In this document: in pieces, positions 1,985 through 14,094 of the stretch
How the letters are laid out: every line of letters begins with the position of its first letter
How positions within the stretch are numbered: the first letter of the stretch is position 1
Source of the DNA: Candidatus Adlerbacteria bacterium
Lineage (GTDB): Bacteria > Patescibacteriota > Minisyncoccia > Phycocordibacterales > SBAW01
Direction of reading: 5' to 3'
Assembly: GCA_903900775.1 (NCBI GenBank)
Contig: CAIUOD010000017.1
Location: forward strand, 1 to 33,784
Length of the DNA stretch: 33,784 nucleotides
Translations under genes and position numbers: made by a program
Notes under the pieces: model-generated
The model's input: only the letters and a program-made list of their open reading frames with translations
The model's database searches: none
Told to the model about the DNA's origin: nothing

Positions 1985-4900
1985 ATGAGTGAGCGTTATG
2001 ACCACAAAGCCATCGAGAAAAAGTGGCAGCAGCGTTGGCAAGAGTCGCAGATTTTTCGTGCACAAGAAGACCTGCCCGCCGGCAAGGCAGGCGCTTCAAA
2101 ACCCAAAACCTACGTGCTCGATATGTTCCCGTACCCTTCGGGCGAAGGACTCCATGTCGGCCATCCCAAAGGCTACATTGCGACCGATATCTACGCGCGC
2201 TTCAAGCGCATGCAGGGCCACTCGGTTTTACACCCAATGGGATGGGACGCCTTCGGTTTGCCTGCCGAAAATTATGCGATAAAAAATAAAATCCACCCGG
2301 CCGTGGCGGTCGAGAAGAATATCGCGAATTTTAAAGACCAGCTTGCGCATATCGGTTTCGACTATGACTGGAGCCGCGAGATAAAAACGACCGATCCGGC
2401 GTTCTATAAGTGGACGCAGTGGATATTTTTGCAGCTCTATAAAAAAGGTTTGGCATTTCAAAGCGACGAGCCGATCAACTGGTGTCCTTCGTGCAAAACG
2501 GGCCTGGCGAACGAAGATTTGAATGGCAATGTATGCGAACGTTGCGACACGGTTGTTGAGAAAAAGCGGTTGCCGCAGTGGGTGCTCAAAATCACCGACT
2601 ATGCCGACCGGATGCTCCACGATTTGGACCACTTGCAGTGGCCCGAACACATCAAAGAGGCCCAGCGCAACTGGATCGGCCGGTCAGAGGGTGCCGAGAT
2701 CGAGTTTATCGTGCCGCGCTTTAAAGAAATTCTGCTTGCCAGCAGCAATGAAAGCAAGCGCGCGCGCGCCGAAAAATTATTTAAAGCATCGGGCCTCGAT
2801 ATAAAAGTACATACGCCAAAATCACTTGGCCTGACTGAAATCGAAGCGGACGAGAACGGCACCCTGGCTGAAAATGCCGAAGCTAAGGCGCGCGCCTATT
2901 CAGGAAAGACAAGCCTGCCCGTGCTGGCAATTGATACCGGTTTTGCGATAGAGGGAGAGGATCTTGATCTCGCACGTCCCAAACGAAATGCTCTTGGCGG
3001 TATTGATGAGAACTCTTTATCTCAAGATGAGGTGGGTGAAAAAATGCTCAAGTTCTATCAGGGTATTGCAAAAAAACATGGCGGTAGGGTCCTTGCACAT
3101 TGGATTGATGCGCTCGCGCTCGTTTTGCCTGACGGTTCGGTAGAACGGGCAGAAGATTCCCGCGAAGTCATTCTTACTGACATTGTCCACGGCGAATTCG
3201 ACAAATTTTTCCCTGTTCGCTCTCTCTACATTTCAAAAACGACTGGTAAGCCAGTAAAAGAAGAAACACCCGAAGAAGAAATTAAAGAGCTTGAACCAAT
3301 GGCTTGGGCGCAAAATGAACTAGTAAGCCGGCCGATAAAAGTTTTCACCACGCGGCCGGACACTTTGTTTGGCGCGAGCTATATGGTGTTGGCGCCGGAG
3401 CATCCGTTCATCCCCGCGATGAAAGCGAGCATCGAAAATTGGGACGAAGTAATTGCCTACATCAGCGAAGCGTCTGCTAAAACCGAAATAGATCGCACCA
3501 AAGAAGGCAAAGAAAAGACAGGCGTCGAGTTGAGGGGGCTCAAAGCCATCAATCCGGCAAACAAAGAACAAATCCCGCTCTACGTTGCCGACTATGTGCT
3601 CGGCGGCTATGGCACCGGGGCCATCATGGCCGTGCCCGCCCACGACGAGCGCGACTTTGCTTTTGCCAAAAAATTTAATTTGCCGGTAAAGAAAGTAATC
3701 GACCAAACGAAATATCTCATTTTTGATTTTGACGGCGTGATTGGTGACACCCTCGAGAACGCCCTTCTTGCCAAGGTAAGAATGGGGTTTTGCCGGGATA
3801 GAGAGGATGCCTATCAAGAAATGCTTACTTATGCGAACAAAAAACCAGTACACATACGCAACCACACGCTCTCGCCTGAAGAATTGCAAAAAGAATACGA
3901 CTGGACAAGCCGTTTCGGCGAAGAGATGCGCAAACAAAAAATAAAACTATTTGATGGTTTTATAACCGAAATACGTAAACTTCGAAATACGAAGATTGCT
4001 GTTGTCTCAAGCGGTTCAAATCTTTATGTCAGGTCGGCTGTCGAGCAGGGGAAGCTCAGCCCGACCCATGTTTTGTGTTTTGAAGACAATCATTCAAAAG
4101 AAGAAAAAATTGAGCGCATCTGTAAAGATTGGGGTGTTTCTGTCAAAGACGTATATTATTTCACAGATACTAAAGCTGACGTTTTTGAACTGGAAAACTT
4201 TTTAAGCAAAGAGCGCATTTTCGGCTGTTCGTGGGGGTTTTTGGGTAAAGAAGCGCTCGAGTCAGTGCTCCCCAAAGAGCAGGTGCTAGAAAACTTCTCG
4301 GACATTCACCGAGTGTTTGAAAACTTGCACACAGATGCGGGTATGCTCGTGGAGTCAGGCTCTTTTGACGGCCTAAATTCTGAAGACGCGAAGAAAAAGA
4401 TCACCGAGTTTGTGGGTGGGAAGATGGCAACGACCTACAAGCTCAAAGATTGGGTTTTTAGTCGCCAACGCTACTGGGGCGAGCCGATACCGATCATCCA
4501 TTGCCCGGCGCATGGCGCGGTTGCCGTGCCCGAGGATCAACTGCCCGTGCTTTTGCCCGAGGTGGAGTTTTATGAGCCTTCCGGCACGGGAGAGTCGCCG
4601 CTGGCAAACATCACCGAGTGGGTGAACACCACCTGCCCCACCTGCGGCGGCCCCGCCAAGCGAGAGACCAACACCATGCCACAGTGGGCGGGCTCGTCGT
4701 GGTACTACCTGCGCTTCATGGACCCGCGCAACGACGCTGCTTTGGTTGGCAAAGATAAAGAAAAATATTGGGCGCCGGTGGATGTCTATGTCGGCGGCGA
4801 TCATGCGGTAAGGCACCTCATCTATGCGCGCTTTTGGCACAAATTCCTCTATGACATCGGCGTGGTCAGCACGGTCGAGCCGTTTGCGCGCCTCGAATTC

Positions 4901-5602
4901 CTCGGATTTATTTTGGCCGAGGATGGCAAGAAGATGAGCAAGCGCCTTGGGAATGTTATCAACCCGACCGAAGTGGTGGCCAACTATGGCGCGGATTCCT
5001 TCCGCATATACGAGATGTTCATGGGGCCGTTCGAGAATACCGTCGCGTGGAATACGGCTTCGATTGCGGGCACGACCCGTTTTATCGAGCGCGTATGGCG
5101 GCTCGCAGGAGAGCCTTTGAGCGAGCAACCGGCGACAGTAGAGCTCGAGGCAATACTTCATCAGACTGCGAAAAAAGTCGGCGAAGATATCGAGGCGTTT
5201 AAATTTAATACCGCGGTCGCGCAGATGATGACATGCCTCAACGCGATGGAGAAAGCGGAGGGGATTCGAGCAGGGCAGTGGAAGGCTTTCATCCGCCTGC
5301 TCGCGCCCTTCGCGCCGCACGTCGCAGAAGAGTTGTGGGAGCGGTTGGGCGAGCCGTATTCGGTGCATCAGGCGGCGTGGCCACAATTTGATGAATCTAA
5401 AATATCGTCCGGCACTATAAAGGTCGCTGTCCAAGTAAATGGCAAAGTGCGCGGCTCGATAGAGCTTGCCCAAGGCGACACCGAAGGAGAGGCTTTAGCG
5501 AAGGCTCGTGGCGCGCCCGGGGTGGCCAAGTGGCTGGTCGAAGGCCGCGAGGTTAAAGCGCTCTATGTGCCTGGTAAAATTATAAGTTTCGTGGTTCAAT
5601 GA
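1985..5602 (+). CDS. leuS: Leucyl-tRNA synthetase with two large domain insertions in the CP1 editing domain
   Basis: HIGH-type motif region (FPYPSGEGLHVGHPKGYIATD), CP1 motifs TTRPDTLFGASY and YGTGAIMAVPAHDERD, KMSKR (EDGKKMSKRLGNV), and an anticodon-binding C-terminal domain. Continuous 1205-aa ORF. Confidence 0.97.
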   Translation: MSERYDHKAIEKKWQQRWQESQIFRAQEDLPAGKAGASKPKTYVLDMFPYPSGEGLHVGHPKGYIATDIYARFKRMQGHSVLHPMGWDAFGLPAENYAIKNKIHPAVAVEKNIANFKDQLAHIGFDYDWSREIKTTDPAFYKWTQWIFLQLYKKGLAFQSDEPINWCPSCKTGLANEDLNGNVCERCDTVVEKKRLPQWVLKITDYADRMLHDLDHLQWPEHIKEAQRNWIGRSEGAEIEFIVPRFKEILLASSNESKRARAEKLFKASGLDIKVHTPKSLGLTEIEADENGTLAENAEAKARAYSGKTSLPVLAIDTGFAIEGEDLDLARPKRNALGGIDENSLSQDEVGEKMLKFYQGIAKKHGGRVLAHWIDALALVLPDGSVERAEDSREVILTDIVHGEFDKFFPVRSLYISKTTGKPVKEETPEEEIKELEPMAWAQNELVSRPIKVFTTRPDTLFGASYMVLAPEHPFIPAMKASIENWDEVIAYISEASAKTEIDRTKEGKEKTGVELRGLKAINPANKEQIPLYVADYVLGGYGTGAIMAVPAHDERDFAFAKKFNLPVKKVIDQTKYLIFDFDGVIGDTLENALLAKVRMGFCRDREDAYQEMLTYANKKPVHIRNHTLSPEELQKEYDWTSRFGEEMRKQKIKLFDGFITEIRKLRNTKIAVVSSGSNLYVRSAVEQGKLSPTHVLCFEDNHSKEEKIERICKDWGVSVKDVYYFTDTKADVFELENFLSKERIFGCSWGFLGKEALESVLPKEQVLENFSDIHRVFENLHTDAGMLVESGSFDGLNSEDAKKKITEFVGGKMATTYKLKDWVFSRQRYWGEPIPIIHCPAHGAVAVPEDQLPVLLPEVEFYEPSGTGESPLANITEWVNTTCPTCGGPAKRETNTMPQWAGSSWYYLRFMDPRNDAALVGKDKEKYWAPVDVYVGGDHAVRHLIYARFWHKFLYDIGVVSTVEPFARLEFLGFILAEDGKKMSKRLGNVINPTEVVANYGADSFRIYEMFMGPFENTVAWNTASIAGTTRFIERVWRLAGEPLSEQPATVELEAILHQTAKKVGEDIEAFKFNTAVAQMMTCLNAMEKAEGIRAGQWKAFIRLLAPFAPHVAEELWERLGEPYSVHQAAWPQFDESKISSGTIKVAVQVNGKVRGSIELAQGDTEGEALAKARGAPGVAKWLVEGREVKALYVPGKIISFVVQ
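2071..2091. repeat. Palindromic 21-nt element CCTGCCCGCCGGCAAGGCAGG, in-frame in leuS
   Basis: CCTGCC...GGCAGG arms around a GCCGGC core; it encodes most of an extra LPAGKAG segment between RAQED and ASKPKTYVL. Confidence 0.75.
2714..3331 (+). other. Inserted Ham1/ITPase-like (non-canonical purine NTP pyrophosphatase) domain within leuS, approx. aa 244-449
   Basis: ILLASSNESKRARAEKLF (S/T-x-N-x-x-K), ENAEAKARAYSGKTSLPVLAIDTGF (cf. ENAxxKAxxxxxxxxLPxLADDSGL of RdgB/Ham1), then LAHWIDALALVLPDGSVE. Sits between the CP1 strand EIEFIV and IKVFTTRPDT, which are contiguous in ordinary LeuRS. Confidence 0.8.
3710..4327 (+). other. Inserted HAD-superfamily hydrolase-like domain within leuS, approx. 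aa 576-781
   Basis: Motif I DFDGVIGDT, motif II VVSSGSN, motif III Lys region EDNHSKEEKIERI, motif IV YYFTDTKADVFE. Sits between CP1 segment KKFNLPVKKVI and GMLVESGSFDGLNSEDAKKKI. Confidence 0.85.
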
Positions 5603-10586: not shown

Positions 10587-10615
10587 TTGACAGAATTCTA
10601 ACCGAGCTGTATTTT
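10587..10615 (+). promoter_or_regulatory. Promoter TTGACA-N17-TATTTT
   Basis: TTGACA 10587-10592, 17-nt spacer, TATTTT 10610-10615, then AGCGCTTG as at 9517-9524. Confidence 0.7.
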
Positions 10616-10671
10616 AGCGCTTGCGCAACATAGTCCTTTGGCAGTGTTCAAGGGGCATAACGAGGAAAGAG

Positions 10672-10860
10672 ATGGGCATGACGACCGACTCCAAGCACTT
10701 CCCGCTCATAAATGCGGAAAAGGCTCTCCGCGCATTCGACGCCTTTGTTTTGCCCAGCGTCAGGGCGGCAATCGCTGGGGGAGATGTCGATGGCTGCCAC
10801 TTCCACGTGACGGTCCTCCGGCCGGGCGTACCCTACAAGGAAATAGACGAAAGCGTATAA
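10672..10860 (+). CDS. Short orphan ORF, hypothetical
   Basis: 62 aa; GAGGA at 10662-10666 upstream of ATG 10672 (or ATG 10678 in the same frame); preceded by a strong promoter. Confidence 0.45.
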   Translation: MGMTTDSKHFPLINAEKALRAFDAFVLPSVRAAIAGGDVDGCHFHVTVLRPGVPYKEIDESV

Positions 10861-10867
10861 CAAATAC

Positions 10868-12019
10868 ATGTCGGTGTTGCGGAAAAATAAGGGCAAGGTT
10901 TTTGTCGGCCTCTCGGGCGGGGTGGACTCGGCTGTGTCTGCGGCGCTACTCCAAAAACAAGGCTATGACGTCACCGGTGTTTTTATTCGCATCACCGTGC
11001 CGGGCTACCCCTGCACCGCCGGTGCCGACAGATTAGAGGCTATGCGCGTGGCGGCGCATCTGCGGATCCCATTTTTTGAGCTCGATTTATCCAAAGAATA
11101 TGCTCGAGACGTTTTTCAAGCTTCAATCAGGGGCTTTGGGGCGGGGGAGACGCCCAACCCCGACGCTTTGTGCAATCGCCAAATCAAATTCGGCGCGTTT
11201 TATCGCTTTGCCAAAGCGAACGGCGCGGATTTTATTGCCACCGGGCATTATGCAAAGCTCACGGCAACCGAACCTCTTAAAGCGAGTGTAAGACTTGGCC
11301 TAGCGGCCCGGAGCGCACGAGCGGGAGAGGTTCGGTTGTTAGTAGGCGCAGACTCCGAAAAAGACCAGTCCTATTTTCTTTGGGCGGTGCCACAGGAGGT
11401 GCTCGCGCAAACTATTTTCCCGGTCGGTGGCATGCATAAGGTGCAGGTGCGCGCGCTGGCAAAAAAGTTTAAATTGCCCAACGCGGGCCGCAAAGATAGT
11501 CAGGGTTTATGTTTTTTAGGCCCCATTTCTATTGATGAAATGCTTAAGCAAGAGTTGCGGCCGGAGCCAGGCGATGTGCTTTCAGAAGATGGCGAAATCA
11601 TAGGCCACCATGAGGGTGCCGAGCTCTATACGCTTGGCCAGCGGCACGGTTTTGAGACTTCGGCGCGCGGCGCCGACTCTAGCCCGCTGTATGTCATCGC
11701 CAAGAATATTGCGGCAAACACTATCACGGTCTCGCCAAATAAATATCCGCGCAATGCGGCAAAAACTAAAATTATTTTGCGAGACGAAAATTGGATAGGT
11801 CAAAAAGTCGAAGGCAAGGTGCAGGCGCGATTTCGTTATCGACAAAAACTTATACCCGCAACTATTTCTTTCTCGAACGGTCGTGCCGAAGTGGAACTCC
11901 AAGAGCCGCATTATGTGCCGGTGGGCCAATCCCTGGTGCTCTATGTCGGTGAGCAGGCCAGCCTGCCGGAAGGCAGGTGCCTCGGTGGCGGCAGTGTTGA
12001 TAAATCTGTCCTTGCCTAG
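10868..12019 (+). CDS. mnmA: tRNA-specific 2-thiouridylase MnmA
   Basis: GLSGGVDSAVSAALL (PP-loop), ETPNPDALCNRQIKFG, FIATGHYAK, DSEKDQSYFLWAV, GRKDSQGLCFLG, C-terminal CLGGG. Confidence 0.96.
   Translation: MSVLRKNKGKVFVGLSGGVDSAVSAALLQKQGYDVTGVFIRITVPGYPCTAGADRLEAMRVAAHLRIPFFELDLSKEYARDVFQASIRGFGAGETPNPDALCNRQIKFGAFYRFAKANGADFIATGHYAKLTATEPLKASVRLGLAARSARAGEVRLLVGADSEKDQSYFLWAVPQEVLAQTIFPVGGMHKVQVRALAKKFKLPNAGRKDSQGLCFLGPISIDEMLKQELRPEPGDVLSEDGEIIGHHEGAELYTLGQRHGFETSARGADSSPLYVIAKNIAANTITVSPNKYPRNAAKTKIILRDENWIGQKVEGKVQARFRYRQKLIPATISFSNGRAEVELQEPHYVPVGQSLVLYVGEQASLPEGRCLGGGSVDKSVLA
11265..11338. repeat. 74-nt in-frame insertion-like element with 13-bp perfect terminal inverted repeats inside mnmA
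   Basis: CAACCGAACCTCT (11265-11277) and AGAGGTTCGGTTG (11326-11338) are exact reverse complements. Confidence 0.75.
11962..11977. repeat. Palindrome CCTGCCGGAAGGCAGG in-frame near the 3' end of mnmA
   Basis: 6-bp arms CCTGCC/GGCAGG; encodes part of the extra QASLPEGR between VGE and CLGGG. Confidence 0.7.
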
Positions 12020-12041
12020 ATAATAAACGTATACTGAGGTT

Positions 12042-12485
12042 GTGGAAAAAGAACGGAGCGCCATCTTGCTGGTCCTTATGCTTTTGCTCATATGCCTGGG
12101 TTGGTTGAGTGTTTCGTTTTATCAGATACCGCCCGCGCAGAGGGTGGCGACAGTTGTTGCCGCGCCCACACCTGACACCACTTTTGTGCCCCCGGGGCAC
12201 ATCACTATCTACAACTCTTCGGCTAGTGGCCAAGAGACGTACAACGGCTCTCTCGACGTGCCCGCGTGCGACACGCTTGGTACCACTCTCTCTACCACCT
12301 GGGATAATCCTATCCATGTGTCCATCGCCCTCGATGTACTGTCCTATCCCGCGTGCACTACGGTGGGGACGACCACCAGCCCATTTTCTTTTTCGGTAAC
12401 AAAAGGCACGGCGACTACCACACCTGTTTTGGGCGGCGTGACGATAAATGATAAACCAGTTACGCTAACGCTTATTGAACGCTGA
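12042..12485 (+). CDS. Membrane-anchored hypothetical protein (GTG start)
   Basis: N-terminal TM helix (AILLVLMLLLICLGWLSVSFY), Ser/Thr-rich extracytoplasmic remainder; TATACT ends 6 nt before the GTG. Confidence 0.6.
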   Translation: MEKERSAILLVLMLLLICLGWLSVSFYQIPPAQRVATVVAAPTPDTTFVPPGHITIYNSSASGQETYNGSLDVPACDTLGTTLSTTWDNPIHVSIALDVLSYPACTTVGTTTSPFSFSVTKGTATTTPVLGGVTINDKPVTLTLIER

Positions 12486-14063: not shown

Positions 14064-14094
14064 AAACGGCGTCCGCCCTAGGCGGACGCCGTTT
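14064..14094. repeat. Perfect 14-bp hairpin AAACGGCGTCCGCC-cta-GGCGGACGCCGTTT between genes
   Basis: Exact reverse-complement arms 14064-14077 and 14081-14094; ends 3 nt before the next ATG. Confidence 0.9.

Follow-up and report, generated by a model that had tools for sequence, protein, structure and literature searches.

How does a hairpin with perfectly complementary arms come to stand inside the gene mnmA of a Candidatus Adlerbacteria genome, and from where does its stem originate? In the window, by which we mean the whole analysed stretch of 33,784 nucleotides, mnmA was identified with the models NCBIfam NF001138 (4.6e-101) and TIGR00420 (1.8e-90), both above their cut-offs, and by the similarity of its product to PDB 2der (2.8e-69). 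The initial annotation had placed an element with 13-bp perfect inverted arms into this gene, and the location, the arms and the protein context were correct: CAACCGAACCTCT at 11265-11277 and AGAGGTTCGGTTG at 11326-11338 enclose 48 nt within mnmA, and the insert lies between GHYAKL and LLVGADSEKDQSYFL of MnmA. The statement that its length keeps the reading frame holds for the net insertion, but the 74 nt of the element are not a multiple of three. The locus has the following parts:

10868..12019, forward strand: mnmA, tRNA 2-thiouridine(34) synthase, 383 aa, the host of the insertion
11265..11338, forward strand: whole hairpin element, 13-bp perfect arms and 48-nt centre, in frame
11265..11273, forward strand: left outer arm CAACCGAAC, reverse complement of the right outer arm; putative copied arm
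11274..11329, forward strand: conserved part of the 'long core' subtype, CTC...GCGAGTGTAAGACTTGGCCTAGCGGCCCGGAGCGCACGAGCGGGAG, common to the copies in pheT, miaA, nifS and infB
11292..11315, forward strand: near-invariant apical core GACTTGGCCTAGCGGCCCGGAGCG with the apical helix GGCC/GGCC, column information about 2 bits
11330..11338, forward strand: right outer arm GTTCGGTTG, codons 155-157 (Val-Arg-Leu), in native-strand position; putative native arm

Perfect inverted repeats of at least 13 bp with a spacer of up to 60 nt occurred just twice in the window, the mnmA hairpin being one of them, and five mononucleotide shuffles yielded 0.0 per window. The second, a perfect 14-bp hairpin with a 3-nt loop in an intergenic position (14064-14094, AAACGGCGTCCGCC), is probably an ordinary terminator. 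Folding as RNA, a check proposed with the annotation, gave -43.4 kcal/mol for the element strand (z -5.7), and none of 200 shuffles folded equally well. A search of Rfam with positions 10600-12100 of the window had no match above the cut-off. On the protein level, 17 residues after GHYvr were left unaligned to the Escherichia coli MnmA 2der (phmmer), and the majority of the genus-mates possess at this site a short turn alone, GHYAQxKxGxLYxGxDxxKDQSYF. Comparison of orthologues, also proposed, thus revealed mnmA genes without the element among the genus-mates, and the left outer arm CAACCGAAC was missing from these genes.

The annotation had further assumed a repeated protein-coding palindrome, for which the existence of other copies was decisive. 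Many copies were found, in the same genome, in genus-mates and in other members of the order, at coding as well as intergenic sites. BLASTN with the mnmA 74-mer retrieved, beside itself (100 %), the pheT copy of the same genome (89 % over 71 nt). This genome (G000; 755,718 bases, 41 contigs) contains five copies, located in mnmA, pheT, infB, rarA and the spacer after atpD, and in addition an element remnant in miaA. Scanning it with the 24-nt core pattern gave four matches with up to one mismatch and still four with up to three; the reversed pattern had none. BLAST (E ≤ 0.001) detected the element in 18 of 35 genus-mates and in none of 25 other genera, while the covariance model R1 recovered it in 22 of 297 genomes, representing 12 of 165 genera in the order; G084 and G107 contain at least 16 copies each. 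The core was not found in viral contigs. Ten exact-pattern matches in a broad scan of genome contigs, mostly in unrelated phyla, were judged to be chance hits, since they are fewer than the 30 or so estimated to arise at random for 17 specified bases.

Copies were present in spacers and in frame within conserved genes, in both orientations. The host genes include mnmA, pheT, infB, rarA, miaA, argS, a NifS-type cysteine desulfurase (two sites), lepA and uvrC. Across these unrelated proteins the DNA of the element is read in two sense and three antisense frames, and its orientation is flipped at one and the same site in rarA, argS, miaA, nifS and upstream of trxB. The copies avoid the frame in which the core contains TAG; an antisense frame, which would otherwise be closed, is open in uvrC of G012 since the core there has GGCCGAGCGGCC. 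Both observations indicate that the inserts are translated, and an open frame through the core would therefore be kept by selection. A plain insertion in the MnmA protein with an incidental DNA palindrome would also be in frame and translated, but the occurrence of the same DNA in unrelated proteins, in several frames and between genes refutes this explanation, which can practically be dismissed. From the scatter, the orientations and the empty orthologues we infer that the element is mobile.

The anatomy of the element was derived for the genus from 57 copies aligned in register. The core GACTTGGCCTAGCGGCCCGGAGCGC is nearly invariant across the copies, and 26 central columns are nearly so as GT[AT][AG]GACTTGGCCTAGCGGCCCGGAG[CT]GC. 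The sequence information of arm columns outside the inner 10 bp is mostly 0.0-0.6 bit, and that of columns at or past the stem base at most about 0.4 bit. Watson-Crick or G-U pairs were nevertheless formed in register by 76-100 % of the copies at k=3-20 and by 67-76 % at k=21-23; pairing then falls over k=24-27, where purine-purine oppositions are frequent, and is weaker further out. Covariation was strong, with 304 double-changed cells where shuffles had 86 ± 8 and a score of 0.651 against 0.153, and even the apical helix shows a compensated change from GGCC/GGCC to GGGC/GCCC. In the 'long core' subtype, which includes the mnmA copy, conservation extends out to CTC/GAG and leaves just 8-13 variable bp.

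The free sequence of the paired stem is most evident among copies of one genome. Overall, arms of different copies within single genomes are 32-60 % identical outside the inner 5 bp, the cores 82-97 %. Eleven copies in G029 have 96 % identical cores and arms that agree between copies by 32-38 % past k=8; the two arms of a single copy are 84-100 % complementary. The corresponding values are 87 %, 38-45 % and 99-100 % for G107, and 82 %, 41-58 % and 100 % for G172. In G107 the stems are mostly 27-37 bp long without a mismatch. One copy of this genome (L303, contig C54) has a stem traceable over about 79 bp, 10 mismatches included; it far exceeds the usual length and looks like a palindrome that was lengthened repeatedly.

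Such stems might belong to a hairpin that moves as a whole, arms included, the arms then drifting in place while homogenisation by template switching keeps them complementary and host DNA serves at no point as template. Related arms were indeed found in three copies of G022, in most copies of G084 and G274 and in some copies of a further hairpin family, family E of G011, whose recognisably shared arms are built around GCAGAAAAATCNCTTTC; G107 has a weak A/C-rich arm consensus. Drift in place looks too slow, however. Orthologous copies changed less in their arms than in their flanks, as seen for the trxB site of G006 and G020, identical over about 90 nt between flanks of 83 % identity, and for rarA of G000 and G026, so that the arm diversity seems to date from the insertion. 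In addition, one arm encodes native residues at several coding sites, and we consider movement of the whole hairpin rather unlikely. The shared arms have a consequence all the same: the inner 5-10 bp follow a genome-specific consensus (AAAGAG, TTTTAGAGAC), and together with the copies that share arms this shows that the core takes some of the arm along. A stem derived entirely from the host in every copy is thereby ruled out.

Native arms were read by eye at about seven coding sites, often over 8-15 nt and between species of 65-80 % identity. Val155-Arg-Leu of MnmA is encoded by the right arm GTTCGGTTG; at this position relatives have VRLLAGAD (G002) or VELxAG (others). The right arm in pheT encodes VSAEV, corresponding to VAAEV in the unoccupied gene of G003. 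At the N-terminal argS site of G022, occupied by a hairpin of another family (family B), the left arm encodes ELAKIL, which is EIAKKL in G025, and the right arm CAGAATCTTTGCCA is the reverse complement of the left; at the C-terminal argS site of this genome the native residues DTSE lie in the left outer arm. The residues VLGER of unoccupied rarA genes correspond in G026 to the left outer arm, GTGCTCGG...GCGAGC, which recurs in inverted form on the right side, GAGC..CCGAGCAC; we read the latter as the copied arm. Similar but weaker patterns were seen in miaA of G018 and G011, and also in tsaE of G084, there against residues which we take to be conserved. The recJ copy of G022 is an exception without a clearly native arm. 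For the family of the mnmA element (family A), a tentative count places the native arm 3' of the core at the majority of sites. Judged from these alignments, the native arms support fold-back copying, short of proof.

The reading to which we give a moderate preference is that the element is a non-autonomous mobile hairpin akin to the Rickettsia palindromic elements, whose perfect stems are written and preserved by fold-back or template-switch copying. The spreading unit would be the short core with its conserved unpaired bases, whereas the stem beneath it is specific to the locus. When the core inserts, or later, a single strand that has folded would be copied back on itself, either by fold-back synthesis or by template switching during replication, leaving host sequence as one arm and its reverse complement as the other. 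Stems would thus differ from site to site since one half is apparently copied from the adjoining host DNA. The same copying could later restore a perfect stem and flip the core. Template switching in replication is known to homogenise arms and to invert spacers (PMC8604942), and to create perfect stems in a single event (PMC8794818). It accounts for the perfect stems and the core flips without extra assumptions, though not for the spread of the core.

The strong covariation could also reflect selection on structure, and the element could be a functional RNA or DNA site placed at useful positions, a core bound by a factor for which a stem of some 22 bp with any sequence would serve as support. 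The abrupt end of pairing near 23 bp and the excess of G-U over A-C mismatches on the core strand (31 versus 13) fit this explanation, and a function could lie behind the identity at the trxB site. Yet, relative to the host transcript, the element points either way at one and the same site in rarA, argS, miaA and nifS and at the trxB site, it occupies in-frame positions in the middle of essential proteins, and its presence is patchy. Most G107 copies have zero mismatches over 27-37 bp, more than selection usually holds, and the mnmA region lacked an Rfam match above the cut-off. A functional site is, on balance, improbable; a function on the mRNA level as the sole cause is contradicted by the antisense copies.

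The loops that accept the element also accept others. In sister genomes the mnmA and argS loops in question hold other hairpins, and every one tested turned out to be a multi-copy family itself; loops of mnmA, argS, lepA, recJ and tsaD are reused by unrelated families. Those read in detail, B in G022, C in G009 and G024, and E in G011, again combine a conserved core with locus-variable, near-complementary arms, at sites in recJ, argS, tsaD, lepA, uvrB, dnaE, holB, atpG and pnp (recJ and pnp confirmed by family models, the remaining genes named from sequence). One could therefore imagine that the core inserts into hairpins that already exist, for instance terminators, and that the stems differ because different hairpins were entered. 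But the loops of rarA, mnmA and argS are without a hairpin in most genus-mates, the hairpins of the sister genomes carry repeated cores of their own, and relatives have empty sites without an inverted repeat, as seen at the present evolutionary distance. We regard this origin as very improbable. Returning to the mobile hairpin with copied stems, a more specific version is put forward tentatively, as a possibility about which we remain doubtful: that there is a class of mobile hairpins which do not bring terminal inverted repeats with them but make these anew wherever they insert, 10-24 nt of the adjacent target being copied in inverted form, an inverted target-site duplication, and that several unrelated core families of this class exist in the order and use the same tolerant loops.

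Several further inserts were observed at these and other sites. In pnp of the sister genomes G020 and G006 (L383, L384) a family E element ends after the left arm and the first bases of the core (AEKSLSPAAD); common to both sisters, it is a fossil of a partial loss. The argS loop of G027 (L191) contains two consecutive unrelated hairpins and about 36 residues more than that of sister genomes. Tiny palindromes, e.g., GGGAAGGTCAGACCTTCCC and ATAGTCGGACATCCGATGTCCGACTAT, are located in the same loops of argS in G031 (L178), rarA in G025 (L120) and mnmA in G002 (L088). Within the window, short coding inserts are present as ASLPEGR at about 11957-11980 near the MnmA C-terminus (CCTGCCGGAAGGCAGG), a 7-residue gap in the alignment to the E. 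coli protein (phmmer), and as EDLPAGKAGA at about 2066-2100 in leuS; they look like another, shorter family of coding palindromes. The LeuS reading frame itself (1985-5602) has 1205 aa, long for this enzyme, and seems, from its translation, to hold inserted stretches resembling an XTP/dITP pyrophosphatase and a HAD phosphatase (IFDFDGVIGDTLENALLAK).

To which known system is the element related? The suggestion of a 'coding palindromic or MITE-like' element stood in its first half, a repeated coding palindrome, while a MITE with terminal inverted repeats was not supported. Like MITEs the element is short, non-autonomous, palindromic and multi-copy. MITEs, however, are defined by terminal inverted repeats that are conserved and, in most cases, by a target duplication; the copies here were expected to share their terminal repeats, but each has its own, and these are precisely the part that is not conserved. 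A target-site duplication was not apparent in 105 copies: the mean longest match was 4.26 between left arm and right flank (control 4.25) and 4.28 between right arm and left flank (control 4.21). The unconserved repeats and the undetected duplication set the element apart from classical MITEs. A 9-nt repeat at one pnp site (L353) was considered as such a duplication and discarded, the 105 copies not being above the control. A search for the Y1 and RVT_1 families did not reveal an autonomous transposase linked to the element. Of the 18 genomes with the element, 14 had Y1 transposase genes and 8 reverse transcriptase genes; of the 17 without it, 12 and 3, respectively. As neither shows a clear association or adjacency, both were rejected as partner. 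No core was found at up to five mismatches in 16 loci with Y1 or reverse transcriptase genes, and no Y1 homologue was identified in the loci of the copies.

With the REP/RAYT system and with CGTC-tagged palindromes the element shares the scattered, short, multi-copy palindromes, some of them within genes, and IS200-type Y1 transposases are common in its genus, too (26 of 35 genomes). REP stems are conserved in sequence and end in a GTAG or CGTC tag (PMC3733652), whereas the element has no conserved tetranucleotide at the stem base and no core near the Y1 genes examined. Near two Y1 transposase genes (L254, L257) we observed GGACCGTCC palindromes similar to the tiny palindromes of the loops; these are possibly a true REP/RAYT system of the genus. 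Rickettsia palindromic elements of 105-146 bp lie between genes and are fused in frame within conserved genes (review PMC2229807). They and the coding palindromes of Wolbachia resemble the element in that short hairpin repeats are intergenic and in frame, several families occur per lineage and the protein tolerates them. The element is shorter, about 70-95 nt, and has no consensus over its whole length including the arms; its near-perfect stem is unique to each copy, the core alone is conserved, and families reuse loops. Rickettsia elements are reported to lose arm identity over time (PMC6649704). The same study describes perfect inverted repeats in coding genes of nematomorph mitochondria, gained and lost between species and probably maintained by template switching (PMC6649704). 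Perfect inverted repeats within coding genes are the common trait; the nematomorph palindromes are much longer, with arms of up to 142 bp spanning gene sequence, and it is the element that has a repeated, conserved core. Among open-licence full texts we found no description of palindromic repeats in these bacteria.

Mobile elements are normally recognised by their conserved ends, while here the middle is conserved and the ends are disposable; repeat searches based on ends would tend to miss it. If the stems are templated by the host, every insertion would be a readable record of its own making, and genomes would allow a test of the long-standing question how perfect stems of free sequence originate. 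For the bacteria themselves, the copies mean that small, gene-dense genomes tolerate repeated insertions of 16-30 residues at a few fixed loops of essential enzymes, and they provide a map of permissive sites in MnmA, ArgS, RarA, MiaA, PheT, LepA, RecJ, TsaD and others.
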